From: Clostridiaceae bacterium
GTDB lineage: Bacteria > Bacillota > Clostridia > Acetivibrionales > DUMC01
Direction: 5' to 3'
Length of the DNA stretch: 35,223 bases
Assembly (NCBI GenBank): GCA_012840075.1
Contig: DUMC01000055.1
Location: forward strand, 1 to 35,223
Each line of letters opens with the position of its first letter. The stretch's first letter is position 1. Below the pieces are notes generated by a model that saw nothing but the letters and a program-made list of their open reading frames with translations, ran no database searches and was not told the origin of the DNA. Shown in pieces: positions 6,983-27,626 of the stretch. Both the position numbers and the translations under genes were made by a program.

Positions 6983-7378
6983 GTGATAGTCGTGAAAAAC
7001 AAGTTGAAGCCGGGGGATTTCCTTGTAGTAGCATTAATAATTTCATTGGCGGTAATTTCTACAGCTTTATTCGTCCAAGGAGAAGCTGAGGCTACCAGGG
7101 TGGTAATCAGTAAAGACGGGGAAGTATTGTATGACGTAAACCTGGAAGAAGTAAAAGAAAGGCTTGAAATAAAGAATTTAAGTGAATACAACGAGTTGAT
7201 TGTAATAGAAGACGGTAAAGTGCGTTTTGAAAGATCAAATTGTCCGGATCAGGTATGTGTAAGGACAGGATGGATATCAAAACCGGGACAAGCAGCGGTG
7301 TGTTTGCCGGCAGGAATAATAGTCAAAATCGTCGGTGAAATAAAAGATAACGATGAGATAGATATTATATTAAGATGA
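6983..7378 (+). CDS. eetA: NusG domain II protein, EetA-like
   Basis: This 131-residue protein has one N-terminal membrane segment (residues ~12-31) and an extracytoplasmic NusG-II domain. The family hallmark is CPDQVCVRTGWISKPGQ followed by VCLPAGIIVKIVG, giving cysteines 87, 92 and 107. In Listeria monocytogenes EET loci, EetA is a NusG-II protein encoded beside a Gx transporter (EetB), and the pair is needed to move electrons from quinone to the surface flavoprotein; the same pair occurs here. The GTG start at 6983 has no clear ribosome-binding site, and the GTG at 6992 is an alternative. The domain call is strong; the EetA role rests on gene context. Confidence 0.82.
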   Translation: MIVVKNKLKPGDFLVVALIISLAVISTALFVQGEAEATRVVISKDGEVLYDVNLEEVKERLEIKNLSEYNELIVIEDGKVRFERSNCPDQVCVRTGWISKPGQAAVCLPAGIIVKIVGEIKDNDEIDIILR

Positions 7379-7413
7379 GAAGGATAAGTCGGATATATTA
7401 AGGTGAAGATGAT

Positions 7414-7953
7414 TTGAAAAATATTGTTTACAAAAGAACCATTAAAAGTACCATTGTAGAAGGCATATTAGTCACAATGGCGTTGATACTTTCTTATGTT
7501 GAAAGAATGATTCCAATCGGACTTATAATACCGATTCCTGGGATAAAATTGGGATTGGCGAATATCGTCACATTATTTGCTTTGTTTTACCTTGGAATAA
7601 AATCCGCATTATTAATTAGCCTTTTAAGATGTATTATTGCAGCCATGCTTTTTGGGGGTATTTATTCTTTTTTGTTTTCATTATCCGGAGCACTTCTGTC
7701 ATTGTTAGTGATGTCCATTCTTATGGGAGGCTATAGCAGGTATTTTTCAATATTCGGCATCAGTATAGGAGGGGCTGCAGCCCATAATATAGGACAAGTA
7801 ATCATCGCATCTTTGGTGCTGCAGAGCACAGCGGTGTTGCCTTATCTGTCATTACTCTTGCTCTCGTCGCTAATCACCGGCAGCCTTACGGGTTTTACTT
7901 CAGCATTGTTGATAAATCATTTTGACAAAATAGGAGTATCAAAAATAAATTAA
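7414..7953 (+). CDS. eetB: Gx transporter family membrane protein, EetB-like (heptaprenyl diphosphate synthase component I family)
   Basis: This 179-residue, very hydrophobic protein has about five or six membrane segments. It carries the Gx family pattern PIPGIKLGLANIVTLFALFYLGIKSALLISLLR and a later GGAAAHNIGQVIIA. The family is often misnamed heptaprenyl diphosphate synthase component I, but it resembles ECF transporter S components. It starts at a TTG (7414) behind AGGTGAAGATGAT, 35 bp after the eetA-like stop codon, so the two genes form an operon. In Listeria-type EET loci the equivalent gene is eetB. Its precise role in electron relay is not settled. Confidence 0.82.
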   Translation: MKNIVYKRTIKSTIVEGILVTMALILSYVERMIPIGLIIPIPGIKLGLANIVTLFALFYLGIKSALLISLLRCIIAAMLFGGIYSFLFSLSGALLSLLVMSILMGGYSRYFSIFGISIGGAAAHNIGQVIIASLVLQSTAVLPYLSLLLLSSLITGSLTGFTSALLINHFDKIGVSKIN

Positions 7954-8028
7954 AATTACAAAAAACCATAAATAATTGATATTAAAAAAGTTATATATAA
8001 GTATAATTTTATTTTAGAATAGTTTATA

Positions 8029-8068
8029 TTTGGTTTGTACTGATCATTTTTGGTTTATACCGATCATT
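8029..8068. repeat. Tandem 20-bp direct repeat upstream of the dmkA-like gene
   Basis: Two adjacent copies (8029-8048 and 8049-8068) read TTTGGTTTGTACTGATCATT and TTTGGTTTATACCGATCATT, identical at 18 of 20 positions. Each carries a GATCA core. The spacing is close to two helical turns, as expected of a direct-repeat operator, but no regulator is identified. Confidence 0.7.
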
Positions 8069-8232
8069 TCGTGGTATATATTTTGTGTTCAATGAAATTA
8101 AGATTGTTAATGAAGCAGATTTATAAATATGCGAATTTATAAACTAGCGGTAAATAATAACGAAAAAATTGCTAAAAATATGGATAGCAAGGTTGAAAAA
8201 GCTATTGTAAACTCAATATAAAAGTGATATAA

Positions 8233-8261
8233 CCTTAGACGCTAAAATATAGCATCTGAGG
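8233..8261. promoter_or_regulatory. Inverted repeat next to the -10 region of the dmkA-like gene
   Basis: CCTTAGACGCTA (8233-8244) pairs with TAGCATCTGAGG (8250-8261) with one mismatch and one G-T pair around a 5-base loop. TATAAT boxes begin 6 bases later. No T-run follows, so an operator or an activator site replacing the missing -35 is more likely than a terminator. Confidence 0.45.
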
Positions 8262-8328
8262 ATGTGTATAATATAATGGTAAAATAAAAATTATAATTTC
8301 ACAAAAAAGTAAGGGGATTGATTTTATA

Positions 8329-9258
8329 TTGAGTACAAAAATATCTACCATTCAAAAAGGATTCTGGCAGCTTGCCGATCCTAAAATATGGGTAGCTTCA
8401 ACTGTCCCGATGATTTTAGGGGTAGTTCTGTCCTGGGCATTAGGGAGAGGATTTGACCTCTTCTGGATGGTTGTTTCATTTATAGGCGTATATTTAATTG
8501 AAATAGGCAAAAATGCCATAAATGAAATCGTTGACTATATGTCAGGGGCAGATGTGTATGTTGACAAAGAGCACCGAAATCCTTTTTCAGGAGGAAAGAA
8601 AACAATAGTTGACGGTTTGCTGGATGTAAAACAAGCTGCCGTTATTGCGTTTGTCACCATGTTTTTGGCAGGCTGTATAGGTTTCATGGTAGTATTTTTT
8701 AAAGAGCCCTTGGTTATATTTGTAGGGGCAGCAGGTTTTATCCTTGCTATCATATACAGTTTACCGCCTTTTAAGCTCTGCTACAGAGGACTGGGTGAGT
8801 TTACGGTAGGACTGGTATTTGGTCCTCTCGTTTTAAACGGTATGTATGTAGTGATGGCAGGGCAATTTGAAATGTTGCCGGTGCTCGTGTCTATTCCCGT
8901 GGGATTGTTAATAGCCAATGTGCTGTGGATTAATCAATTTCCTGATTATGAAGCAGATGCCCGGGCTAATAAGAGAAACTGGGTTGTTAGGCTGGGGAAA
9001 CAAAAATCATCTATAGTATATGGAATAATATTTGCTCTTACATATGTTTTTATTGGGATTATAGCTATATATGCTAATAATCCCATTTGGCTTATTGGAC
9101 TTTTGAGCGCACCATTGGCAGTAAAAGCTGTAAAAAACTGCATGCAGAATTTTAACAACATACCTGAGCTTTTGGAGTCTAATAAGGCCACCATACAGAT
9201 ATATATGCTAAATGGACTGTTATTAGGAATTGCCGCTATTATTTACGGCAGGTTTTAA
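8329..9258 (+). CDS. dmkA: UbiA-family prenyltransferase, DmkA/MenA-like (demethylmenaquinone synthesis)
   Basis: This 309-residue integral membrane protein belongs to the UbiA superfamily, which attaches polyprenyl chains to aromatic acceptors. In MenA-type members the acceptor is 1,4-dihydroxy-2-naphthoate and the product is demethylmenaquinone. The first Asp-rich motif is NAINEIVDYMSGADVYVD (usual N-x-x-x-D-x-x-x-D pattern). The second is NQFPDYEADARANKRNWVVRLG (D-x-x-x-D). About eight hydrophobic segments are visible. The start is a TTG, with AAGGGG 12 bases upstream. It sits between the eetAB-like pair and ndh2, as expected of dmkA in flavin-based EET loci, so it probably supplies the dedicated quinone. 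The exact acceptor is inferred from context. Confidence 0.85.
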   Translation: MSTKISTIQKGFWQLADPKIWVASTVPMILGVVLSWALGRGFDLFWMVVSFIGVYLIEIGKNAINEIVDYMSGADVYVDKEHRNPFSGGKKTIVDGLLDVKQAAVIAFVTMFLAGCIGFMVVFFKEPLVIFVGAAGFILAIIYSLPPFKLCYRGLGEFTVGLVFGPLVLNGMYVVMAGQFEMLPVLVSIPVGLLIANVLWINQFPDYEADARANKRNWVVRLGKQKSSIVYGIIFALTYVFIGIIAIYANNPIWLIGLLSAPLAVKAVKNCMQNFNNIPELLESNKATIQIYMLNGLLLGIAAIIYGRF

Positions 9259-9331
9259 ATTTATGATGTATTTGTATTATGTGATTTTATTGTTAGTGCA
9301 ATTTATTGTTGTTATTTTATTTTGATTTTTG

Positions 9332-9457
9332 TTGTTAAAAATTTAGCTAATTTTGTTAAAATTTTAGCTATTATTGTTAAAGATTTGTTTAGCTTTGTTA
9401 AAATGTTAGCCAATCTTGTTAAAACATTAATTAACCTTGTTAAATTGTTGGCTAACG
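9332..9457 (+). repeat. Six phased 21-bp direct repeats with TTGTTAA cores upstream of ndh2
   Basis: TTGTTAA occurs at exactly 9332, 9353, 9374, 9395, 9416 and 9437, always 21 bp apart with no gaps. Most units continue as TTGTTAA-N4-TTAGCTAA, for example AAAT then TTAGCTAA in unit 1, AATG then TTAGCCAA in unit 4, AACA then TTAATTAA in unit 5. This is a near-dyad resembling the clostridial Rex operator pattern TTGTTAA-N4-TTAACAA. Twenty-one bp is two helical turns, so all copies face the same side of the helix. The array ends 56 bp before the ndh2 start codon. Confidence 0.85.
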
Positions 9458-9513
9458 TTTATAAATTAAATTAGTTATTTATATATAGGCTTACTCAAAA
9501 TTTAGGAGGAAAG

Positions 9514-11472
9514 ATGAAAGTGCCAAAAAGGGTTGTTATTGTCGGAGCCGGTTATGCCGGTATTAAAGCTGCTTTAACATTGAACAAACACAAAACAAAG
9601 GAAGATATTGAAGTCGTAATAATTGATAAAAATCACTATCACACCCTACTTACTGAAATTCATGAAGTAGCGGGTAACAGGGTTTCTGAAGATGCCGTCC
9701 GCATACCTCTTAATGAGATATTTAAGTTTACCAAAGTAAAAGTTATAAACGATGAAATAACAAATTTTGAGTTTGAAAAAAATAAAGTTTCTTCGGAAAA
9801 TCACGAGTATGAATATGATTATTTGATAATGGCTATGGGAAGCATGCCGAACTTCTTTGGAATCCCTGGTCTAAAAGAGCACGGATTTACTCTTTGGTCT
9901 CTTAATGATGCCATAAAAATTCGTGAACATATACGTTCATGTTTTATTCATGCATCCCAGGAGAAAAACGAGGAAAAAAGAAGAGCTTTGCTGACTTTCG
10001 TTGTGAGCGGTGCAGGATTCACCGGGGTGGAAATGGTTGGTGAGCTGGCTCATTGGACTAAAGATCTGGCCAGGGAATACGGGGTTAAAAAAGAGGAAGT
10101 TCGCCTGGTAATTATAGATATGCTCCCGAGGATTTTAAATTCACTCAGTGAGAAAAATGCTCAAAAAGCCCACAAGTACATGGAGAAGAAACTGGGAATT
10201 GAAATAATGCTCAAAACCGCTGTTAAAGAAGTTACTCCGGAAAAGATCATTACTGACAAAGGTCCTATTGATACAAGAACTGTTATATGGGCAGCAGGAA
10301 TAACAGCATGTGAAATGAACGGAGATTGCGACATAGAGAAAGTAGGAAGGAGCAACAGGTTAAAAGTTGACCGGTTCTGCCGCACGGATCATCATAATGT
10401 TTATGTAGTGGGAGATCTTTCCGGGCTTTCTGACGACCAAGGCAGGCCTTATCCTGCAATGGTGGAAAATGCGTTGCAAACCGCCGAGGGAGCAGCAAAG
10501 AATATAATTCGTGATATTGAAGGGAAAGAGCTGAAGGAAGTTAAAGTAAAATTACATGGCACAATGGTTTCCGTAGGCAATTATTACGCAGTATCCGAAA
10601 TCATGGGTAAAATTCTTCCCGCGTGGATTTCTATGATCATGAAATACCTAGTAAATGCCCATTATTTGTGGGAGATTACGGGATTTAGGGGTGTAGGACG
10701 TTACTTTTATCATGAACTTCTTGAAAGAAAACAGAGAAAGATCTTTTTGGAAAAGCACTGGTCTACAAGAATGCAAGCTTGGTGGATAACATTGCTCAGG
10801 GTATTTCTGGGTGGAATGTGGCTGTATGAAGGTATAGAGAAGATAAAGGAAGGATGGCTCAATTCGCCTAAACTGGCAAGTTTCCTTGGAATGGCAAATG
10901 ATGCCGTAAGCAGTGCCACATCTGCAGTCACGGATGCTACAACCGGCGCTACGCCTACAAGCTTGTTTGTAAGAAGAATTGATGAGCTGTTTAAATTCGA
11001 CATAGGGATTATTAATTTTATTATCGGTAAGGAAAGCAGGCTGGTTGAAGGAAATGCCATTTCAAGTGAACTGTTTGCTAAACTTGATCTGTTGCATATC
11101 GGCGATTTTAACCTGATGCCTTGGGTGCTTAAAAACATAGTCCTTGCAAATGATGGTATTGCAATGTTTTTCCAAGTTCTTGTAGTCGTATTCGAAATTT
11201 TAGTCGGTTTAATGTTAATCGGCGGTGCGCTTACGTTCTTAGGTTCATTGATTTCGCTTGGCTTGTTAGCAATGTTTATTACCTCCACAGGATTATATAA
11301 GAGCACATGGTGGATGATTTTTGCTTCCATTGCAACCATGGGCGGTGCAGGACGTGCATTCGGGCTTGATTATTATTTGATACCTTATTTGGCAAATGTC
11401 TGGGACTATTTTTGGAAAAATAGAAAGCTACGCTTATTTTTCTCCGGAAGTCTTGAAAGGTTTGAAAGATAG
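9514..11472 (+). CDS. ndh2: Type II NADH dehydrogenase fused to a C-terminal DoxX-like membrane domain (EET-type Ndh2)
   Basis: This 652-residue protein has two parts. Residues 1-~400 form an NDH-2 flavoprotein, which oxidises NADH with FAD and reduces a membrane quinone without pumping ions. FAD binding is shown by VVIVGAGYAGIKAA (residues 7-20), NAD binding by FVVSGAGFTGVEMVGEL, and the FAD ribose motif by VYVVGDLSGL. From ~416 onward there is a DoxX-like region of about four membrane helices, beginning AWWITLLRVFLGGMWLYEGIEKI. Ordinary NDH-2 is about 400 residues, so the ~250-residue membrane extension is the distinctive feature; EET-dedicated Ndh2 of Listeria also has an extra membrane domain. 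GGAGG precedes the ATG with good spacing. The six phased repeats at 9332-9457 probably control it. Confidence 0.92.
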   Translation: MKVPKRVVIVGAGYAGIKAALTLNKHKTKEDIEVVIIDKNHYHTLLTEIHEVAGNRVSEDAVRIPLNEIFKFTKVKVINDEITNFEFEKNKVSSENHEYEYDYLIMAMGSMPNFFGIPGLKEHGFTLWSLNDAIKIREHIRSCFIHASQEKNEEKRRALLTFVVSGAGFTGVEMVGELAHWTKDLAREYGVKKEEVRLVIIDMLPRILNSLSEKNAQKAHKYMEKKLGIEIMLKTAVKEVTPEKIITDKGPIDTRTVIWAAGITACEMNGDCDIEKVGRSNRLKVDRFCRTDHHNVYVVGDLSGLSDDQGRPYPAMVENALQTAEGAAKNIIRDIEGKELKEVKVKLHGTMVSVGNYYAVSEIMGKILPAWISMIMKYLVNAHYLWEITGFRGVGRYFYHELLERKQRKIFLEKHWSTRMQAWWITLLRVFLGGMWLYEGIEKIKEGWLNSPKLASFLGMANDAVSSATSAVTDATTGATPTSLFVRRIDELFKFDIGIINFIIGKESRLVEGNAISSELFAKLDLLHIGDFNLMPWVLKNIVLANDGIAMFFQVLVVVFEILVGLMLIGGALTFLGSLISLGLLAMFITSTGLYKSTWWMIFASIATMGGAGRAFGLDYYLIPYLANVWDYFWKNRKLRLFFSGSLERFER

Positions 11473-11633
11473 GAAATGGCAGGTGGAATATCGGGTAGTG
11501 GAGTTTTAAGAGCTTAGATTTAAGAGATTTAGGAGTTTAGCGGAATTTTAGAATCTGTAGAAGCTAAGTATTGGAGTTAAGATTATTTGAACAGGATAAG
11601 AGTGGAGTAAACAGATTTGGAGTTGATAACCTT

Positions 11634-12662
11634 ATGTGGAGTAAGGACAGCTTTGTAGTTAAAGAATTAAACGCTTTCGAAGAATATCTTAGGGATAAAT
11701 ATAAACCGGGTAACAGTTTTTTGAATAACGTTTCCCAAAAGATTATTTTCTCGGGAGGAAAGCGTTTAAGACCGGCGTTAGTAATAATATCAGGTATGAT
11801 GGGAGAATATGACAGAAACAAAATTTTCCCGTTGGCAGCAGCTATTGAAACTCTCCATACAGCAACCCTTGTTCATGATGATATTATTGATAATGCCAAA
11901 ACAAGGAGAGGTCAGATTACAACTTCTGAAAAACACGGGATAAATATAGCAATTTACACGGGAGATTATTTGCTTGCAAATTCCATTTTGCTCCTGGCTG
12001 AGTCGGGTTTAGCTGTAAAAGAATTGGACAGACTTGCCAAAGCTGTAAAGATGATTTGCACCGGGGAAGTGAGCCAGTTTTTAAATAGGTATAAATTGAC
12101 ATCCGTAAGCGGTTATCTGAAAAGAATAATGAAAAAAACCGGCATACTGTTTTCAGCTTCATGCGCTATTGGATCTTTTGCATCAAATTGTGATTATAAA
12201 CAGGTGAGAACAATGGCACGTATTGGTATGAACATAGGTATAGCTTTTCAAATTCGCGACGACCTGCTGGATATCGAGATTTACGGCAAAGGAGCTGAAA
12301 AAATAGGCAAACCTATAACAAATGATATTAAAAACGGCATTATTACATTACCTTTCATATATTCAGCAAAACGATCCGAAACAGTAAGGCGGAGTATTGA
12401 GGAATTGTTTCAAATTACGGATGATTTAAGTAATGTTAAACAAAGAGAAGAAGTATTTACTGACAAAAATGTAAACAATAATAAAGACATTAATAGCTAC
12501 ATCAGGCAAATAATCAATGATGTAATAGAAAGCGGTGGGGTCAGTGATGCAAAAGCATTAAAGAACAGGTACATACAAAAGGCAAGAAACCTGCTTGAGA
12601 CCTTACCGCAAATAACAAATGAAGCCAAGCAGGCACTTGAAGATATTATAAACTGGTTGTAA
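11634..12662 (+). CDS. dmkB: Polyprenyl diphosphate synthase, DmkB/HepT-like
   Basis: This all-helical trans-prenyltransferase builds the long isoprenoid tail that the neighbouring UbiA-type enzyme attaches. Key features are SGGKRLRPALV, the first aspartate-rich motif VHDDIIDNAKTRRG, the second QIRDDLLDIEIYGK, and GEVSQF. I prefer the ATG at 11634 (342 residues), which has GGAG 11 bases upstream and yields a normal family N-terminus (MWSKDSFVVKELNAFEEYL). The frame stays open to a TTG at 11571 with no ribosome-binding site. A charged, Asn-rich insertion around DKNVNNNKDINSY, near residues 275-290, is unusual. Chain length cannot be read from the sequence. It follows ndh2 by ~160 bp in the same direction. 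Confidence 0.9.
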   Translation: MWSKDSFVVKELNAFEEYLRDKYKPGNSFLNNVSQKIIFSGGKRLRPALVIISGMMGEYDRNKIFPLAAAIETLHTATLVHDDIIDNAKTRRGQITTSEKHGINIAIYTGDYLLANSILLLAESGLAVKELDRLAKAVKMICTGEVSQFLNRYKLTSVSGYLKRIMKKTGILFSASCAIGSFASNCDYKQVRTMARIGMNIGIAFQIRDDLLDIEIYGKGAEKIGKPITNDIKNGIITLPFIYSAKRSETVRRSIEELFQITDDLSNVKQREEVFTDKNVNNNKDINSYIRQIINDVIESGGVSDAKALKNRYIQKARNLLETLPQITNEAKQALEDIINWL

Positions 12663-12678
12663 CCATTAATTTAGTTGC

Positions 12679-12694
12679 AAACCCAAAAGGGTTT
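12679..12694 (+). promoter_or_regulatory. Small hairpin in the dmkB-pplA gap
   Basis: AAACCC-AAAA-GGGTTT forms a 6-bp stem with a 4-base loop. No U-tract follows, so partial attenuation or an mRNA-processing signal is more likely than full termination. Confidence 0.35.
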
Positions 12695-12746
12695 CATATA
12701 AAAAAAGAGCTTATAGACTAGAAAACAGAAACAGGGAGGTTTAATT

Positions 12747-13319
12747 ATGAAGAAGAAAATTTTTGCAATTGTTGTTGCAGTTACCCTAATATTAACGCTA
12801 TTTACTGCATGCGGGGGCGGAGCATCATCAGGAGGAGCATCAGCAGGAGGTATAAAAACCGGACTTGGTCATGTAGTATTAATTGACAAGTCAGTAGAAG
12901 CATCTGCAGATGCTGACGGTTATGCACAGGTAGATACTATCATGGCTGCTGTTAGTGTCGATTCCAGCGGCAAAATAGTAAGTGTAACCATTGACACTGC
13001 CCAAACAAGAGTTCCTTTTGATGCAAGCGGCAAGTTGAAAGCAGATCTTACTGAACCTCAAAAAACAAAGGTAGAGCTTGGTAAAGATTATGGTATGATC
13101 AGAGCTTCCAGCATAGGGAAAGAATGGTATGAACAAATAGCTGAGTTAGAAAAATGGATGATAGGAAAAACAATTGACCAAGTCAAAGCTATGAAAGTAA
13201 AGAAGGTAGACGATGCTCACCCAAGTGTTCCGGACGAACCTGATCTTGTAAGCAAAGTAACAATTTCCGTTCAAGACTACATCGCTGCAGTAGAAGAGGC
13301 AGTTAAAAATGCTAAATAA
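12747..13319 (+). CDS. pplA: Surface lipoprotein in the PplA position, with a variant flavinylation motif
   Basis: This 190-residue exported lipoprotein has a basic start, a hydrophobic core and a lipobox ending at Cys22 (LFTAC), then a Gly/Ser/Ala linker. The rest (residues ~35-187) resembles a single FMN-bind-like domain: TIMAAVSVDSSGKIVSVTIDTAQT, then WMIGKTIDQVKAMK, then DLVSKVTISVQDYIAAVEEAV. In classical FMN-bind proteins the last segment reads D-x-x-SGAT-x-T/S, and ApbE links FMN to that Thr. Here it reads D166-L-V-S169-K-V-T172-I-S, keeping the Asp, Ser and Thr but replacing Gly-Ala. Listeria PplA has two such domains; this protein has one. The AGGGAGG site is ideal. The PplA role is inferred from ApbE next door and the EET context. 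Confidence 0.75.
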   Translation: MKKKIFAIVVAVTLILTLFTACGGGASSGGASAGGIKTGLGHVVLIDKSVEASADADGYAQVDTIMAAVSVDSSGKIVSVTIDTAQTRVPFDASGKLKADLTEPQKTKVELGKDYGMIRASSIGKEWYEQIAELEKWMIGKTIDQVKAMKVKKVDDAHPSVPDEPDLVSKVTISVQDYIAAVEEAVKNAK

Positions 13320-13406
13320 TATTTAAAAATTTAAGAAAATTAAATATTTGAGAATTTAAGTAGGTTATATTTATTAAAATTTAAAGTGAAAGTGGTATAC
13401 TTAAAG

Positions 13407-13438
13407 TTTCAGTGGGGAACTTGTAATCCCCACTGAAA
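13407..13438 (+). terminator. Terminator or attenuator hairpin after the pplA-like gene
   Basis: TTTCAGTGGGGA (13407-13418) pairs perfectly with TCCCCACTGAAA (13427-13438) around an 8-base loop. Only a short TTTC follows, so termination may be partial. It could set a high lipoprotein-to-ApbE ratio. Confidence 0.65.
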
Positions 13439-13490
13439 TTTCAATGGCAATTATTTCGAATAAAAAGCGTTAACAATTTGGAATAATCAT

Positions 13491-13525
13491 TATACTAGTT
13501 TTGCTCTCGTTATTAGAAGCGAGAG
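13491..13525 (+). promoter_or_regulatory. Possible second promoter and leader hairpin of fmnB/apbE
   Basis: TTAACA (13470-13475) and TATACT (13491-13496) are separated by a short 15-bp spacer. A hairpin CTCTCG (13504-13509) with CGAGAG (13520-13525) follows in the leader. TTAACAA at 13470-13476 also matches one half of the Rex operator pattern. Confidence 0.35.
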
Positions 13526-13571
13526 ATTTATTTATTTTAGATTGCTGTCTGCAAAATATAGGGGTGATTTT

Positions 13572-14726
13572 TTGAAAAATAAGAAAACAGTGTTTTTATT
13601 AACAACTGTTATATTGATTATCTTAATAATAGGTGGGATAAGCTTCAAAGCCATCTTCGGCAATGAGGATTTCAATTTGCATGTACCGGGTTCTGATGAA
13701 AAGAACACAGGAAATGTAAAGTATAGTAAATACAGTTACGAGTTTCTAGGTGCTTTTGATACTGTAATTCAATTTGTCGGTTATGCAAAAAGCGAACAGG
13801 AATTTGAAACAATGGTCAAGGCAGGGCAGAAAAGATTTGAAGAATTACACAAGTTGTTCGATATTTATAACGATTATGAAGGCATTAATAATATTAAGAC
13901 TATAAATGATAATGCAGGTATAACTCCGGTAAAAGTAAGTCCTGAAATAATAAGCCTGATCGAATTTTGTAAGGAATGGTATTATAAAACCGGCGGAGTA
14001 GTAAATATTGCTTTAGGACCCGTTCTTTCAATATGGCATGAATACAGGGAAGAGGGGTTAATTAATCCTGAAAAAGCGAGAATACCGGATATTGAATTAT
14101 TGAAACAAGCAAATCTGAAAACTGATATAGAAAAAGTAAAGATTAATAAAGAAGAAAGTACCGTATTTCTGGAAGAGGCGGGAATGAAACTGGATGTTGG
14201 AGCCGTAGCAAAGGGTTTTGCTACGGAAATTGTTGCAAAAGAGCTGGAAGAACAGGGATATACATCATTTATAATAAGCGGCGGCGGAAACATAAAAATA
14301 GTCGGCAAACCTTTGGGAGGCAACCGCAGCAAATGGGCAATCGGAATCCAGGACCCCGACGGAAATCCTTTAATACCAAATAGTGAAACTGTGGATACAG
14401 TCTATGCAAATGATACATCCATCGTTTCAAGCGGGGATTATCAAAGATTTTATGTGGTTGATGGAAAGAGGATGCACCACATAATCGATCCAGAAACACT
14501 TATGCCTGCAAGTCGCTATCGTGCAGTTACGGTTATGACACCTGATTCGGGTCTTGCAGATTTGCTTTCAACAACGATATTTATACTTCCATATGATCAA
14601 GGCCGCAGGTTGGTAGAAAGTCTTGAAAACGTTGAAGCATTATGGATCTTTCCTGACGGTACCATCACTGCTACGGAAAATATGAAAAAGGTTTTAAAAA
14701 ATTTAGGAGGAGCTACTGGGGAATAA
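13572..14726 (+). CDS. fmnB: FAD:protein FMN transferase (ApbE family), FmnB-like
   Basis: ApbE enzymes transfer FMN from FAD onto a Thr/Ser of exported flavoproteins. The start is the TTG at 13572 (384 residues), since AGGGGTGA lies just upstream; the in-frame TTG at 13542 has no such site. An N-terminal membrane anchor (VFLLTTVILIILIIGGISF) places the enzyme outside the membrane, and I see no lipobox cysteine. Family motifs are GGVVNIALGPVLSIW, LDVGAVAKGFATEIV, FIISGGGNIKIVGKP, HHIIDPETLMPA and the metal-binding region GLADLLSTTIFIL. The neighbouring lipoprotein is the obvious substrate. It closes the EET locus; tRNA-Cys follows. Confidence 0.92.
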   Translation: MKNKKTVFLLTTVILIILIIGGISFKAIFGNEDFNLHVPGSDEKNTGNVKYSKYSYEFLGAFDTVIQFVGYAKSEQEFETMVKAGQKRFEELHKLFDIYNDYEGINNIKTINDNAGITPVKVSPEIISLIEFCKEWYYKTGGVVNIALGPVLSIWHEYREEGLINPEKARIPDIELLKQANLKTDIEKVKINKEESTVFLEEAGMKLDVGAVAKGFATEIVAKELEEQGYTSFIISGGGNIKIVGKPLGGNRSKWAIGIQDPDGNPLIPNSETVDTVYANDTSIVSSGDYQRFYVVDGKRMHHIIDPETLMPASRYRAVTVMTPDSGLADLLSTTIFILPYDQGRRLVESLENVEALWIFPDGTITATENMKKVLKNLGGATGE

Positions 14727-15874: not shown

Positions 15875-16292
15875 AATTACACCTCCGAATGGTCCAGATA
15901 TACTAGATGTTTTATATACTATGTGTTTAATTCTACCTGATTTTTAATACCATTTCAATAATCAAAAGATTTAGCTTTCAAAATCTTCAAAATTTGACTT
16001 TCAAAATCTCTAAATTTAGCTTTGTAATTTTAAATTGGTATTTTTCAACTGATAATTGCTTTTTAAAAATTGAAATTTGATAGCTGTTTTTCAGATGAAT
16101 TTTCGAAGTAGTTCATATTTAGTTCATATTTTCTATTTATAATATTAAATTGCACTATTATAAAATTTAATTTATTGTTATGTTGGATATAGTAAATTAA
16201 TAATTACATAATTAAATTTTAAATATAAGTAAAATTAAGTTTTAAATCAAATATAAATTTAAATAAAAAATGATGACTAAGTGGGTGTGGGT
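15875..16292. other. Divergent intergenic region with three 23-bp repeats
   Basis: No gene is visible. It carries the 23-bp repeats (15969-16034), a doubled GTTCATATTT motif (around 16110-16130) and very AT-rich sequence. I cannot single out a convincing promoter for the exporter genes. Confidence 0.5.
15969..16034. repeat. Three degenerate tandem 23-bp repeats
   Basis: Copies at 15969-15991, 15992-16014 and 16015-16034 share ATTT(AG/GA)CTTTCAAAATC, the third being the most diverged (TTTAGCTTTGTAATTTTAAA). They lie in the gap between the divergent orphan membrane gene and the exporter operon. Confidence 0.65.
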
Positions 16293-17624
16293 ATGAAGAA
16301 GAGAAAGATCATTATATGGTGTGTAGTTATATTTGCCGTGATAATCATATTTTTTGGTTTAAGACTTTCTATGATCAGGGCATTGGAACAAGTAGAAATA
16401 CGGACTCATACTTTGGAGAAGACTGATCTTATGGACTCGGTCTTCGTATCCGGCACAATTTTAAGTAGCAATACAAAGTATGTGTATTCAAATGTGGCAA
16501 GTTATTCTATAAAAGAAGTATATGTTGAGGTCGGGGATAAAGTAAAAGCAGGGGATATTCTAGCTCGACTTGATACAACTTCTCTTGAACTTGATATAAA
16601 GCAAACGGAACTGAATATAAAAAATGCTGAAGAGTCGCTTAAAAATGAAAAAGCATCTATTGAGACTAATTTGCAAAAAGCTTTAAATAATCTGGAGTTA
16701 GCTTTACTTGACCTTGAGGAAGCCAAAAAAAACTATGAAAAGATAAAAACGAAATACGAAGCTTCGGCAAGTACCGAAGATGAATTTTCCAAAGCAAAAA
16801 CAGCGCTGGAAAAAGCCCAGATTGCTTATGACAATGCCCTTGTTACTCTAGAGGATGTTAAAAACAGAAGTACAGCATCAATAGAAAATAACATTGAAAT
16901 ACAAAAAGCAACTTTAGAAAAACAGAAAAAAATACTTAATGATTCCATAATAGTTTCTCCTATAGACGGAACGGTCACAATGGTAAATGCTAAAGAAAAC
17001 GGACCAGCATCGGGCTTATTATTTGTAATAGAGGACACTGAGAATCTAATTGCATCTACTGCAATTGGAGAATATGATATAGGATTTATAAAAGTTGGAC
17101 AGGAGGTTATAGTAAAAGCTGACGGCTTAGGAGATAAAGAAATAAAAGGCGTTGTTTCGGAAATATCTCCTACCGCTATGAAGGATGCAAGTGGGAATAC
17201 GGCTTCTACCTCCAATGTTCAATTTGAAACAAAAATCACATTGACGGAAAAAGATCCGAATTTGAAGATAGGTATGAATGTGAGGCTTACTATTATATTA
17301 GAAGAAAAGAATGATGTTTATTCGGTACCCTATGATGCGGTGGTAACGGAAGATGACGGAAACCAATATATTTATGTACTTGAGGGAGAAAAAGATCAAT
17401 CCCAAAGCGGATTGCCAAGTTTATTAAGGACTGGGCTGCGAGATATTAATGCGAGAAAAATACAAGTTCAAACAGGGCTTGAAACTGATATGTATGTTGA
17501 AATTATATCATCTGAATTGGAAGATGGAATGAGAGTTATCGCTGATCCTTCACAAATTCAATTTGCATCTCTCAGGAGCGCAAGACAAAACCGCCTCCTT
17601 AGGAGACTTAGAGATGGCTTTTGA
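16293..17624 (+). CDS. MacA-like membrane fusion protein (efflux adaptor subunit)
   Basis: This 443-residue HlyD/MacA-type adaptor anchors in the membrane and projects outward to work with the ABC exporter encoded next. After an N-terminal membrane segment (IIIWCVVIFAVIIIFFGL) come a first biotinyl-lipoyl half (VYVEVGDKVKAGDILARLDTTSL), a long coiled coil (about residues 95-220, ALEKAQIAYDNALVTLEDVK), the second lipoyl half (IVSPIDGTVTMVNAKENG) and beta-barrel regions (GLGDKEIKGVVSEISPT). I prefer the ATG at 16293; a GTG four codons earlier is in frame, and the ribosome-binding site is weak in both cases. It forms a three-gene unit with the ATPase and permease. Substrate is unknown; peptide or lipid-like molecules are usual for the family. 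Confidence 0.9.
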   Translation: MKKRKIIIWCVVIFAVIIIFFGLRLSMIRALEQVEIRTHTLEKTDLMDSVFVSGTILSSNTKYVYSNVASYSIKEVYVEVGDKVKAGDILARLDTTSLELDIKQTELNIKNAEESLKNEKASIETNLQKALNNLELALLDLEEAKKNYEKIKTKYEASASTEDEFSKAKTALEKAQIAYDNALVTLEDVKNRSTASIENNIEIQKATLEKQKKILNDSIIVSPIDGTVTMVNAKENGPASGLLFVIEDTENLIASTAIGEYDIGFIKVGQEVIVKADGLGDKEIKGVVSEISPTAMKDASGNTASTSNVQFETKITLTEKDPNLKIGMNVRLTIILEEKNDVYSVPYDAVVTEDDGNQYIYVLEGEKDQSQSGLPSLLRTGLRDINARKIQVQTGLETDMYVEIISSELEDGMRVIADPSQIQFASLRSARQNRLLRRLRDGF

Positions 17625-17753
17625 TTTCGCTTAATTTTAGCTGCACCGGTGCCGTTATTTGTATGAAAGAATTTGCGGCTATTAGAAGGAAGTTGTTGCT
17701 ATTATTTGCATATTTTCAGGTATGGGCAGATGATTGAAGGGAGGTGCGGGTAG

Positions 17754-18446
17754 ATGATTGAAGTAAGGAATCTGGTAAAGAAATATTTTGCAGGTACTCC
17801 AAATGAAATTCTTGCACTGGATAACATCAATTTAAAAATTGAAGATGGTGAGTTTGTAGCACTTGTCGGTGCATCGGGTTCCGGAAAGTCAACTTTTATG
17901 AATATAATAGGTGCTCTTGATCGTCCTACCCAAGGGGAATATCTAATTGACGGCATCCCTGTCCACACCATGACTCAAAATCAACTGTCAGATATACGTA
18001 ATAAAAAAATAGGATTCGTTTTTCAATCTTTTAATTTGATAGCGCGTTCAAATGCGTTGAAGAATGTGGAACTACCCATGCTATATGCAGGCGTTTCCGG
18101 AAGAGAACGTGCAAGGCGTGCAAAGGAACTTTTAGAACTCGTAGGAATGGGGGACAGGCTTTATCATTTACCTAATGAGCTTTCAGGAGGACAAAAACAA
18201 AGGGTTGCTATAGCCAGGGCTCTGGCAAATGATCCTTCAATTATACTTGCTGATGAACCGACAGGGTCATTGGATTCCAAAACCGGAATTTTGATTATGA
18301 ATATATTTAAGGAAATACACAGGGAAAAAAAGAAGACTATTTTAATTGTTACCCATAATCCCGATGTTGCGAAAATGACTCAGCGGATTATTACAATCAA
18401 AGACGGAAAGATAGTAAGTGATGTGCCCAACACTCCGGTGGCATAA
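17754..18446 (+). CDS. MacB/LolD-type ABC transporter ATP-binding protein
   Basis: This 230-residue ATPase powers the adaptor-permease complex. Walker A is GASGSGKST, the Q-loop region is VFQSFNLIARSNALKNVELPM, the signature is LSGGQKQRVAIARAL, Walker B is IILADEPTGSLD and the H-loop is THNP. The FNL..R.. pattern after the Q-loop is typical of the MacB/LolD/FtsE group, which uses mechanotransmission rather than direct transport. GGGAGGTG precedes the ATG. The bases just upstream partly duplicate the start region (AGATGATTGAAG occurs twice), and the upstream copy is probably not used. It lies 129 bp after the adaptor gene and 116 bp before the chosen permease start. Confidence 0.94.
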   Translation: MIEVRNLVKKYFAGTPNEILALDNINLKIEDGEFVALVGASGSGKSTFMNIIGALDRPTQGEYLIDGIPVHTMTQNQLSDIRNKKIGFVFQSFNLIARSNALKNVELPMLYAGVSGRERARRAKELLELVGMGDRLYHLPNELSGGQKQRVAIARALANDPSIILADEPTGSLDSKTGILIMNIFKEIHREKKKTILIVTHNPDVAKMTQRIITIKDGKIVSDVPNTPVA

Positions 18447-18562
18447 AAAGATAAGTGAATTATTCAAGCTTAATGCAGTTTATTTTCTTTGCATTTACAT
18501 CGTTTTATCGTACGGTAAAGGTACCGTACAGTATAGAGGCACCATATAGTGGAGGTGATGTG

Positions 18563-19825
18563 ATGTTTTTTAAGGAAAATTTAATACAAGCATTGGAAAG
18601 CTTAAAAGCAAATAAAATGCGCTCTTTTTTGACAATGCTTGGTATAATTATAGGCATAGCATCGGTTATTGCAATAATAACAGTGGGGAATTCTCTCTCT
18701 TCTTCTATTACAACTGAGATGCAAAGACTTGGTGCCAATAATTTTATGGTTATTGTAAGAGAAAAAGGCAACCGTTTTTCCATGCCAGGTTCAGGTTCAG
18801 TGGCCAGGGAAGAGGATCTTATAAGCGATGACATGTTGGAAATGTTTCAGGAGTATTATAATGATCAGGTCAATGCCATAAGCCTTAGTGAAACATTGGG
18901 TTCAGGTCAGGTGAAAGATGGAAGGTTATATGCTAATGTGTCGGTTACCGGCGTTAATCCCGGGTATATGCTGGTTAATGATGTAAAAATGATAAGCGGA
19001 AGATTTATTAATGAACGGGATGTGGCAGGAAGAAAAAGCGTAGCTGTTGTTTCCGATAGACTTGTGAAAAATATTTTTGGTGAAAATGTGGATCCTTTAG
19101 GGAAGGAAATAAAACTTTATGATTCCAGGGGCATTAGGACATTTGTAATAGTAGGAGTTTATGAATATCAAGAGTCAGCAATGTTTATGGCGTATTCATC
19201 TTTACCGGAAAAAGATATAAGGACTTACATGTATGTCCCCGTTACGCTGGTGAAGCAGGAAAAATCAACAAGCAATTATTCTACCGTAACTATCATGAGC
19301 AAGCCCGGGGTGGATGCTGATAAATTTGAAGAAGATATTGAAAATTTTTTCAATAAATTTTACGAGAGGAATCCAAAATGGGAAATAGCTGCGATTAGCA
19401 TGTCCAGTCAAATTGAGATAGCAGCAACAATTATGAACACCGTATCCACAGCTGTAGCGGTAATTGCTGCAATATCCCTCCTTGTAGGAGGCATAGGTGT
19501 AATGAATATCATGTTGGTATCCGTCACTGAAAGGACCAGGGAAATCGGTATCAGGAAAGCTTTAGGAGCAAAAAATTTCCACGTACGTATGCAATTTATA
19601 ACTGAAGCTATGATAATTTCTCTTATTGGAGGTATTATCGGCCTTATTTTAGGGCTCATAATGGGAAGCATTGGAAGTACACTTATAAATACTGAGCCTG
19701 TATTTACATTCCCGACTATAATTGTCACAATTATTTTCTCAATGGCAATAGGTGTTTTCTTTGGTTACTACCCTGCCAATAAGGCAGCAATGCTTGATCC
19801 TATAGAAGCTTTGAGGTATGAGTGA
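18563..19825 (+). CDS. MacB/FtsX-type ABC transporter permease
   Basis: The start is the ATG at 18563 (420 residues), preceded by a strong GGAGGTGAT at 18551-18559. The frame runs back to a GTG at 18455, but that part has no ribosome-binding site and does not look like the family. The domain order is typical: N-terminal helix (MRSFLTMLGIIIGIASVIAI), a large extracytoplasmic MacB domain of ~220 residues (GRFINERDVAGRKSVAVVSD), then the FtsX-like C-terminal membrane domain (GGIGVMNIMLVSVTERTREI and ALGA). The ending PIEALRYE is also typical. With the two preceding genes it forms a MacAB-like exporter. Confidence 0.93.
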   Translation: MFFKENLIQALESLKANKMRSFLTMLGIIIGIASVIAIITVGNSLSSSITTEMQRLGANNFMVIVREKGNRFSMPGSGSVAREEDLISDDMLEMFQEYYNDQVNAISLSETLGSGQVKDGRLYANVSVTGVNPGYMLVNDVKMISGRFINERDVAGRKSVAVVSDRLVKNIFGENVDPLGKEIKLYDSRGIRTFVIVGVYEYQESAMFMAYSSLPEKDIRTYMYVPVTLVKQEKSTSNYSTVTIMSKPGVDADKFEEDIENFFNKFYERNPKWEIAAISMSSQIEIAATIMNTVSTAVAVIAAISLLVGGIGVMNIMLVSVTERTREIGIRKALGAKNFHVRMQFITEAMIISLIGGIIGLILGLIMGSIGSTLINTEPVFTFPTIIVTIIFSMAIGVFFGYYPANKAAMLDPIEALRYE

Positions 19826-26918: not shown

Positions 26919-27626
26919 ATGGCGAACAGTAAGAAGATTTCAATAGCAGTTATAAGGCGTTTACCAAGGTACTATAGATACCTAGCTGATTTACTGAGGA
27001 TGGATATAACCAGGATATCTTCAAAAGAATTAAGTCAAAGAATGGGGATTACTGCCTCTCAAATACGCCAGGACTTAAATTGTTTCGGGGGTTTTGGACA
27101 ACAGGGCTATGGATACAATGTAGAAGTCCTGTATAAAGAAATTGGAAAGATTTTAGGAGTAGTAAACAATAGATTCCATTTTATAATTATCGGCGCCGGA
27201 AATATGGGGCAGGCACTTGCAAACTACGAAAATTTTGAAAAAAGAGGTTTTCAGCTTGTAGGAATATTTGATATAAATCCTCAGTTAATCGGCAAAAAAA
27301 TACGCAATGTGGAAATAATGCACATGGATCAGTTGGATGAATTTGTTAAAAATAATAAAGTAGATATTGCCGTTTTAACAGTACCTTATAAAAACATACC
27401 TGAAGTTGCAGAAAAAGTTGCAAGCCTTGGGATAAAAGGTTTGTGGAATTTTTCTGCCATGGATTTGAAACTTCCGTATGATGATATTATTATTGAAAAT
27501 GTCCATTTAAGCGATAGCTTAATGGTTTTGGGATATAGATTAAAAGAAAGCCAGAAAAAGAAAAAGAAAAAGGAAGGAACTAATGACAGCGGCAACACAA
27601 ATAATGAAAGTAACACGAATAATTAG
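26919..27626 (+). CDS. rex: Redox-sensing transcriptional repressor Rex
   Basis: Rex senses the NADH/NAD+ ratio; NADH releases it from operators of fermentation and respiration genes. The 235-residue protein has an N-terminal winged helix (AVIRRLPRYYRYLADLL, ISSKELSQRMGITASQIRQDLN, then the wing GGFGQQGYGYNVEVL). A Rossmann fold follows with IIGAGNMGQALANY, the GIFDINPQLIGKKI region and a final domain-swap helix (LSDSLMVLGYRLKESQ). A tail of ~20 residues (poly-Lys, then Asn/Ser/Thr-rich) is extra; usual Rex is about 210-215 residues. GGGAGAAG precedes the ATG. Rex operators in clostridia read TTGTTAA-N4-TTAACAA, which is relevant to the repeats at 9332-9457. Confidence 0.95.
   Translation: MANSKKISIAVIRRLPRYYRYLADLLRMDITRISSKELSQRMGITASQIRQDLNCFGGFGQQGYGYNVEVLYKEIGKILGVVNNRFHFIIIGAGNMGQALANYENFEKRGFQLVGIFDINPQLIGKKIRNVEIMHMDQLDEFVKNNKVDIAVLTVPYKNIPEVAEKVASLGIKGLWNFSAMDLKLPYDDIIIENVHLSDSLMVLGYRLKESQKKKKKKEGTNDSGNTNNESNTNN

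Follow-up and report, generated by a model that had tools for sequence, protein, structure and literature searches.

The type II NADH dehydrogenase (Ndh2) encoded in a 35,223-nucleotide stretch of a Clostridiaceae bacterium (contig DUMC01000055.1 of assembly GCA_012840075.1; this whole stretch is called the window below) is, judging from its sequence, probably flavinylated, passing electrons from NADH to a flavin mononucleotide (FMN) tethered to the enzyme itself. Its gene belongs to a seven-gene locus that a first-pass annotation of the window, made from the letters alone, had described as a nearly complete flavin-based extracellular electron transfer (EET) system. Beyond that description, we report flavinylation motifs of the ApbE type in Ndh2 and an altered motif in the neighbouring lipoprotein. 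Papers are cited by their PMC identifiers, and statements about them refer to the parts of their text that were covered.

Flavinylation motifs in the Ndh2 loop

Ndh2 combines an NADH dehydrogenase (Pfam Pyr_redox_2, 9.5e-42) with a C-terminal MauE-like domain of the DoxX type (1.2e-6). The gene and its two motifs are located as follows.

9514..11472, + strand: ndh2, type II NADH dehydrogenase fused to a MauE/DoxX-like membrane domain, 652 amino acids (Pfam and AlphaFold)
10900..10920, + strand: Ndh2 residues 463-469, DAVSSAT, first ApbE-type flavinylation motif, predicted acceptor T469 (alignment and sequence)
10933..10953, + strand: Ndh2 residues 474-480, DATTGAT, second motif, predicted acceptor T480 (exact D-x-x-[ST]-G-A-[ST] consensus)

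The AlphaFold model of Ndh2, computed with a 27-row alignment, has a mean pLDDT of 82.7 and places C-terminal helices at residues 418-445, 547-570, 574-591, 596-608 and 619-636. Both motifs fall between the first helix of the membrane domain (418-445) and the helix at 547-570, and the segment holding them (residues 462-485) has pLDDT values under 50 and is predicted to be disordered. The consensus D-x-x-[ST]-G-A-[ST] is reported to work as a seven-residue flavinylation tag, whether placed at a terminus or within a loop (PMC12052999); DAVSSAT departs from it at the G position. Within residues 446-546, alignment A3 (27 rows) lists a single invariant column, A479. Provided that the NADH-binding domain is cytosolic and helix 418-445 membrane-spanning, the loop of the model would face outward; its membrane side was judged by hydropathy, with a spanning threshold of 1.3 over 19 residues.

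Comparison of this loop with those of relatives was based on 79 relative loci plus the window (80 loops; locus L168 was dropped as incomplete), to which 29 further loci of the phylum were added, giving 109 loops, 106 of them distinct. The form D-x-x-[ST]-[GSA]-A-[ST] (D-form) occurs in 58 of the 80 loops, where 1000 composition-preserving shuffles gave 0.5 on average and 4 at most; the core [ST][GSA]A[ST] is found in 74 loops (8.0 in shuffles), and the strict form with G in 13. The 37313 residues N-terminal to the loop contain not a single match to the D-form. Among the distinct loops, 69 carry the motif, with 109 sites in total. The aspartate stands at -3 relative to the core in 69 loops and at any other spacing in 0-5, and the reversed D-form is found in none of the 106, though the reversed core by itself occurs in 48. 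Given the shuffles, the missing reversed motif and the single register of the aspartate, we think it unlikely that the motif merely reflects low complexity.

Tandem copies are frequent in Ndh2 loops, and none of the loops read has a longer array than that of locus L092, with its seven DAVTAAT units. The short-type Ndh2 proteins of the order, whose loops are non-repetitive, retain the motif in ten cases out of ten, and Listeria Ndh2 (four species sampled, L. monocytogenes not included) has ATSGAS at the same loop, without Asp. What these sequence counts establish is that the motif is conserved and repeated; they are not tallies of independent events.

The motif was also considered as a general DoxX feature, which we rejected: among stand-alone DoxX frames, chosen by hydrophobicity, the D-form is present in 0 of 24 and the core in 1 of 24 (a few frames, such as L214 and L218, are doubtful, and L205-L207 bear an additional domain).

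Co-occurrence of ApbE with Ndh2 was examined at the level of whole genomes. Of 398 phylum genomes searched, 94 contain an NDH-2 match at E<=1e-60. Ndh2 was called fused where the match reached E 2e-156 or better and the frame was about 580 amino acids or longer; this gave 45 genomes, the tail having been read in 30 (the window and L086-L114) and the other 15 being called by length. ApbE is present in all 45 genomes judged fused and in 15 of the 35 with plain NDH-2 that were covered, out of 49 (Fisher p 9e-10, the genomes being related and not independent).

On the scale of loci, 48 of the 80 relative stretches hold apbE. No PplA-like gene is found in 10 of these 48, some of which end at contig ends, and the Ndh2 loops of these ten carry the core. 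(Eleven stretches were initially unmatched; Listeria floridensis L169 was removed, its frame with two SGAT sites having been missed by the profile.) In Thermoclostridium caenicola (L118), one of these ten, the order is eetA-eetB-ndh2-dmkB-fmnB, no pplA-like gene was found and Ndh2 has DSQSAAT. In the window, as in all five nearest relatives of the order (L065-L069), ndh2 and fmnB have a pplA-like gene between them. The fmnB gene of the window is the only ApbE match found in its genome, which also encodes a 133-residue FMN_bind protein and, on contig G000:C66 (L001), an Rnf operon. Two products of this operon, which we take from their sequence and FMN_bind match to be RnfG and RnfD, carry canonical SGAT.

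The locus and its altered lipoprotein

The seven open frames occupy positions 6983-14726 in the order eetA-eetB-dmkA-ndh2-dmkB-pplA-fmnB. The earlier claim of seven consecutive genes on one strand was verified throughout, all lying on the + strand at the positions first given and six of them having Pfam matches. Besides ndh2, the locus comprises the following.

6983..7378, + strand: eetA, NusG_II-domain protein with an N-terminal hydrophobic stretch, 131 amino acids (Pfam NusG_II, 3.5e-31)
7414..7953, + strand: eetB, ECF-S-like membrane protein of PF07456, predicted FAD exporter subunit, 179 amino acids (Pfam Hpre_diP_synt_I, the EetB family, 2.1e-39)
8329..9258, + strand: dmkA, UbiA/MenA-like prenyltransferase, 309 amino acids (Pfam UbiA, 7e-30)
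11571..12662, + strand: dmkB, polyprenyl diphosphate synthase, 363 amino acids (polyprenyl_synt, 3.9e-60)
12747..13319, + strand: pplA-like gene, exported lipoprotein with lipobox C22 and a single FMN-bind2-like domain, 190 amino acids (alignment, AlphaFold, profile match to PDB)
13242..13262, + strand: lipoprotein residues 166-172, DLVSKVT, changed flavinylation motif, predicted acceptor T172 (alignment A2)
13542..14726, + strand: fmnB/apbE, FMN transferase with an N-terminal hydrophobic anchor, 394 amino acids as listed (ApbE, 5.1e-67)

Intergenic gaps of 375, 255 and 222 base pairs (bp) precede dmkA, ndh2 and fmnB, respectively. The starts listed for eetA, dmkB and fmnB are the earliest possible, and the real ones may be slightly downstream. 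The source genome measures 3.78 megabases in 193 contigs and is 97% complete.

All five of the module members eetA, eetB, dmkA, dmkB and fmnB are present at the locus. Protein families, the gene set and alignment with Listeria Ndh2 (four species) and PplA (two species) support its assignment to the Listeria-type flavin-based EET modules, a gene set already known; that part of the first-pass annotation stands. A published definition of EET clusters, an NADH dehydrogenase with a transmembrane helix inside a flavinylation gene cluster (PMC8238504), would probably take in the locus, where ndh2 stands beside apbE and helix 555-573 of its product is strongly hydrophobic. Relatives with similar Ndh2 loci include Thermoclostridium caenicola, Acetivibrio mesophilus and Ruminiclostridium, which suggests that the source organism belongs to their clostridial order. 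Against 1,4-dihydroxy-2-naphthoate (DHNA) prenyltransferase models DmkA reaches 4.4e-37 at best, every one of them being under its cut-off. EetB gives a weak match, also under the cut-off, to a family of S components of energy-coupling factor (ECF) transporters, and its function as an exporter of flavin adenine dinucleotide (FAD) is predicted by analogy with Listeria EetB (PMC9973259).

The lipoprotein has no Pfam or NCBIfam family at E<=0.001, and at a looser threshold it matches FMN_bind (PF04205) with E 0.0087 and 17.1 bits, below the 22-bit Pfam cut-off. A single-sequence search of PDB sequences gave nothing significant (2kzx at E 1); a profile of alignment A2 (34 relatives, rows with canonical motifs included) finds 2kzx at 6.4e-32 and 3o6u at 7.6e-18. 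The AlphaFold model (mean pLDDT 88.0) has no Foldseek match in the PDB at E<=0.001, and in the VIA structure comparison the best row is 3o6u, with a middling Z of 7.7 over 106 residues; several IscU chains follow at Z about 5-6. Relationship to FMN_bind proteins is supported by profile and model in spite of the low Pfam score, and the protein fits the FMN-bind2 subtype of PMC10979944. Surveys relying on the Pfam FMN_bind cut-off would miss it, since its score falls below. In the order, relatives of the lipoprotein occur in 26 of 58 genomes (one, G034, matches by signal peptide only), the five nearest being single-domain and most others two-domain.

Its motif reads SKVT instead of SGAT, with the acceptor threonine kept. 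The acceptor Thr/Ser is retained in 34 of the 34 rows of A2, and the two residues preceding it are GA in 6 rows (among them two Listeria rows and small FMN_bind-like proteins), GV in 5 (Paenibacillus), xV in 21, xA in 1 and xC in 1. As aligned, the lipoprotein motif is a graded change away from canonical SGAT. Seven Paenibacillus loci (L143, L144, L170, L181, L186, L190, L191) have the arrangement pplA-ndh2-dmkB with no apbE in the stretch read; the motif of their lipoprotein is SGVS or SGVT, intermediate between SGAT and SxVT.

No fmnA, which would encode an ECF-T subunit, lies within the locus; the sole CbiQ/EcfT-family match of the genome sits on a different contig. FmnA had been introduced in the first-pass annotation as a flavin ECF transporter, which must be corrected: in Listeria, EetB is reported as the FAD-exporting ECF-S-like subunit and FmnA as its ECF-T partner, hence not as a flavin importer (PMC9973259). 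As ECF-T subunits are partly redundant in Listeria (PMC9973259), we treat fmnA as non-essential.

The genome has no menB match and no MqnC match over the cut-off, its 97% completeness leaving room for a gap and other men/mqn genes not having been searched. Across the order, menB is over the cut-off in 2 of 58 genomes and MqnC in none of the 58, weaker MqnC matches in 52 being discounted as sub-cut-off. Because both are lacking, the organism is probably unable to make its own DHNA, and the quinone ring would have to be scavenged. A missing DHNA route had been named beforehand as a finding that would speak against the module, and the two negatives bear this out in part. Since Lactiplantibacillus plantarum performs EET using externally supplied DHNA (PMC9888254), the menB and MqnC negatives argue against self-made DHNA, not against the module, and are not fatal to it.

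One repeated element lies upstream of ndh2.

9332..9444, + strand: six exact copies of TTGTTAAA at an exact spacing of 21 bp, between dmkA and ndh2 (sequence repeats)

The TTGTTAAA array may be an operator array or the remnant of a short reading frame; by eye, one of its frames reads as a short amphipathic heptad-like peptide. No TTGTTAA array with 21-bp spacing is present in the loci of 12 relatives. A Rex operator upstream of ndh2 was rejected (partial matches only, with 2-3 mismatches), and Rfam at the gathering threshold yields tRNAs only. The frame at 26919-27626, 15 kilobases from ndh2, resembles the redox-sensing repressor Rex. At 16281-19825, a HlyD/MacA-like adaptor (model matches) is followed by frames resembling, by eye, an ABC ATPase and a MacB-like permease.

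The proposed electron route and its rivals

In the route we propose, EetB would export FAD by way of a shared ECF motor, and FmnB would attach FMN to T480 of Ndh2, probably to T469 and, with less certainty, to the lipoprotein at T172. NADH would reduce the FAD of Ndh2 on the inner side, the DoxX-like domain together with a prenylated quinone (DmkA/DmkB acting on a scavenged ring) would carry electrons across the membrane, and the tethered FMN on the outer face would accept them and pass them on to the lipoprotein, free flavins or ferric iron. The tandem motifs of relatives would form multi-FMN tethers. In its widest form the proposal extends to Ndh2 of flavin-based EET throughout Bacillota, Listeria included: ApbE would load its disordered outer loop with FMN at one to seven tandem sites, these tethered FMNs would supply the outward step so far lacking from the FAD inside to PplA or soluble acceptors, and PplA, perhaps also quinone, would be optional; towards this general claim we lean only slightly.

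Riboflavin-dependent iron reduction by L. plantarum requires ndh2 and eetA/B, pplA, dmkA and dmkB being dispensable (PMC9888254). As ndh2 is needed and pplA is not, this pattern suits an Ndh2 that delivers electrons outside without PplA. The same paper heads its section on riboflavin in L. plantarum 'an unknown, protein-mediated mechanism'. No statement on flavinylation of Ndh2 was found in the literature covered (parts of PMC9973259, PMC10979944, PMC8238504, PMC12052999, PMC9888254, PMC8837199, PMC9094743, PMC10339131, PMC13134045, PMC12455635, PMC8906456 and PMC7074142); the 2018 Nature and 2019 PNAS EET papers lie outside this coverage and may mention it. If the proposal is true, ApbE gains as a substrate a respiratory membrane enzyme that has no FMN_bind domain, some apbE genes without a known substrate gain a partner, and the motif is widened to SAAT/SSAT and perhaps SKVT.

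Several observations weigh against flavinylation of Ndh2. Helix 418-445 is weak, its best 19-residue hydropathy being 1.01 in the Ndh2 of the window, and across 109 Ndh2 proteins the first helix has a mean of 1.32, only 60 of them reaching 1.3. The D-form is missing from 22 of the 80 loops, and 16 of the 109 lack the core, mostly having near variants such as VAGAS (e.g. GDKLVAGAS), SGSS and DAVASAS. Many relatives have A or S in place of the consensus G, and in one tested protein the change of G to A left about 50% of the flavinylation (PMC12052999). The shuffles overstate significance because the Ndh2 proteins are homologous. No apbE is seen in 32 of the 80 stretches, the Paenibacillus loci included, and presence of ApbE does not name Ndh2 as its substrate, since the single ApbE must also serve Rnf. 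Finally, riboflavin-dependent EET of L. plantarum needed quinone pregrowth, which disfavours a quinone-free route (PMC9888254).

The weak first helix also suits the published Listeria model as told in PMC9888254 and PMC8906456, in which Ndh2 would only reduce the demethylmenaquinone pool, the lipoprotein would be the sole flavinylated carrier and the loop a flexible Ala/Ser/Thr-rich linker resembling the motif. These three residues are indeed abundant in many Ndh2 loops, but composition of this kind produced the motif in 0.5 shuffled loops against 58 observed, it does not account for the lack of a reversed motif or for the single register of the aspartate, and the motif is kept even in short non-repetitive loops. 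The sole carrier, moreover, would have lost its canonical motif and is not found in 10 of the 48 apbE-bearing stretches. We consider this model unlikely to describe the locus.

The same loss from the lipoprotein may be read in the opposite direction. The clostridial lipoprotein would then no longer be flavinylated and would serve only as a scaffold or as a binder of quinone or flavin, Ndh2 being the sole flavinylated member of the locus, which is compatible with our proposal. The second motif position of A2 is something other than G in 23 of 34 rows, and in 21 of those 23 the third position is V; single changes of G to A and of A to V lowered flavinylation of a tested protein (PMC12052999). 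Yet the acceptor T/S is conserved in all 34 rows, the five Paenibacillus rows with SGVS or SGVT are intermediates, and the domain stays next to apbE in many loci; a lipoprotein without flavin therefore appears rather doubtful to us. A third explanation separates the genes of the locus altogether: apbE and eetB would work chiefly for the Rnf complex, whose genes lie elsewhere, and Ndh2, together with the prenyl genes, would be a separate quinone reductase for redox balance. The single ApbE match of the genome and the canonical SGAT of RnfG and RnfD agree with it, as does the frequent adjacency of clostridial eetB to Rnf genes (PMC9973259). It is nevertheless quite improbable in view of the pplA-like gene placed between ndh2 and fmnB both here and in five of five nearest relatives, and of ndh2, pplA and fmnB being found together again in further loci. 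A flavinylated Ndh2 thus remains the reading we prefer.

Comparison with known systems

The Listeria flavin-based EET locus was reportedly described by Light et al. in 2018. It has in common with the window eetA, eetB, dmkA, dmkB, ndh2, a PplA-type lipoprotein and fmnB (PMC9973259). In contrast to Listeria, the locus of the window contains no fmnA, its gene order is different and the genome has no menB match; the lipoprotein is single-domain with SKVT, and Ndh2 bears two Asp-containing copies of the motif where Listeria has ATSGAS. With the flavin-based EET of Lactiplantibacillus plantarum (FLEET), the system would share Ndh2-dependent EET with DHNA from outside (PMC9888254, PMC8837199). The Ndh2 proteins of about 580-640 residues from phylum relatives, some of which we take to be lactic acid bacteria, have the near variants VAGAS and SGSS and not the D-form (Ndh2 of L. 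plantarum itself is not included).

Closer to the window stands the short-type clostridial locus, ndh2 / apbE-eetA-eetB-dmkB (L075-L084), which shares the fused Ndh2 with its loop motif, apbE, eetA, eetB and dmkB. It differs in its divergent arrangement and in having no PplA-like lipoprotein of the window's type. In all ten such loci of the order ndh2 lies beside apbE, and in nine together with eetA-eetB-dmkB (L083 is incomplete). A small FMN_bind-like protein with SGAT is present in four of them (L075, L077, L079, L084); none was seen in the remaining six.

Several ApbE sites per protein, as predicted here, are likewise known from SaFMN3 and CbFMN4; their sites lie each within a folded FMN_bind domain, whereas those of Ndh2 are in a loop without such a domain (PMC10339131). 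The NosR-ApbE module of Clostridium, proposed for Fe(III) reduction, differs in that NosR has FMN-binding domains and no Ndh2 fusion is mentioned in the part of the paper covered, but it likewise relies on an ApbE-flavinylated membrane protein, proposed there to pass electrons from quinone to iron outside (PMC13134045).

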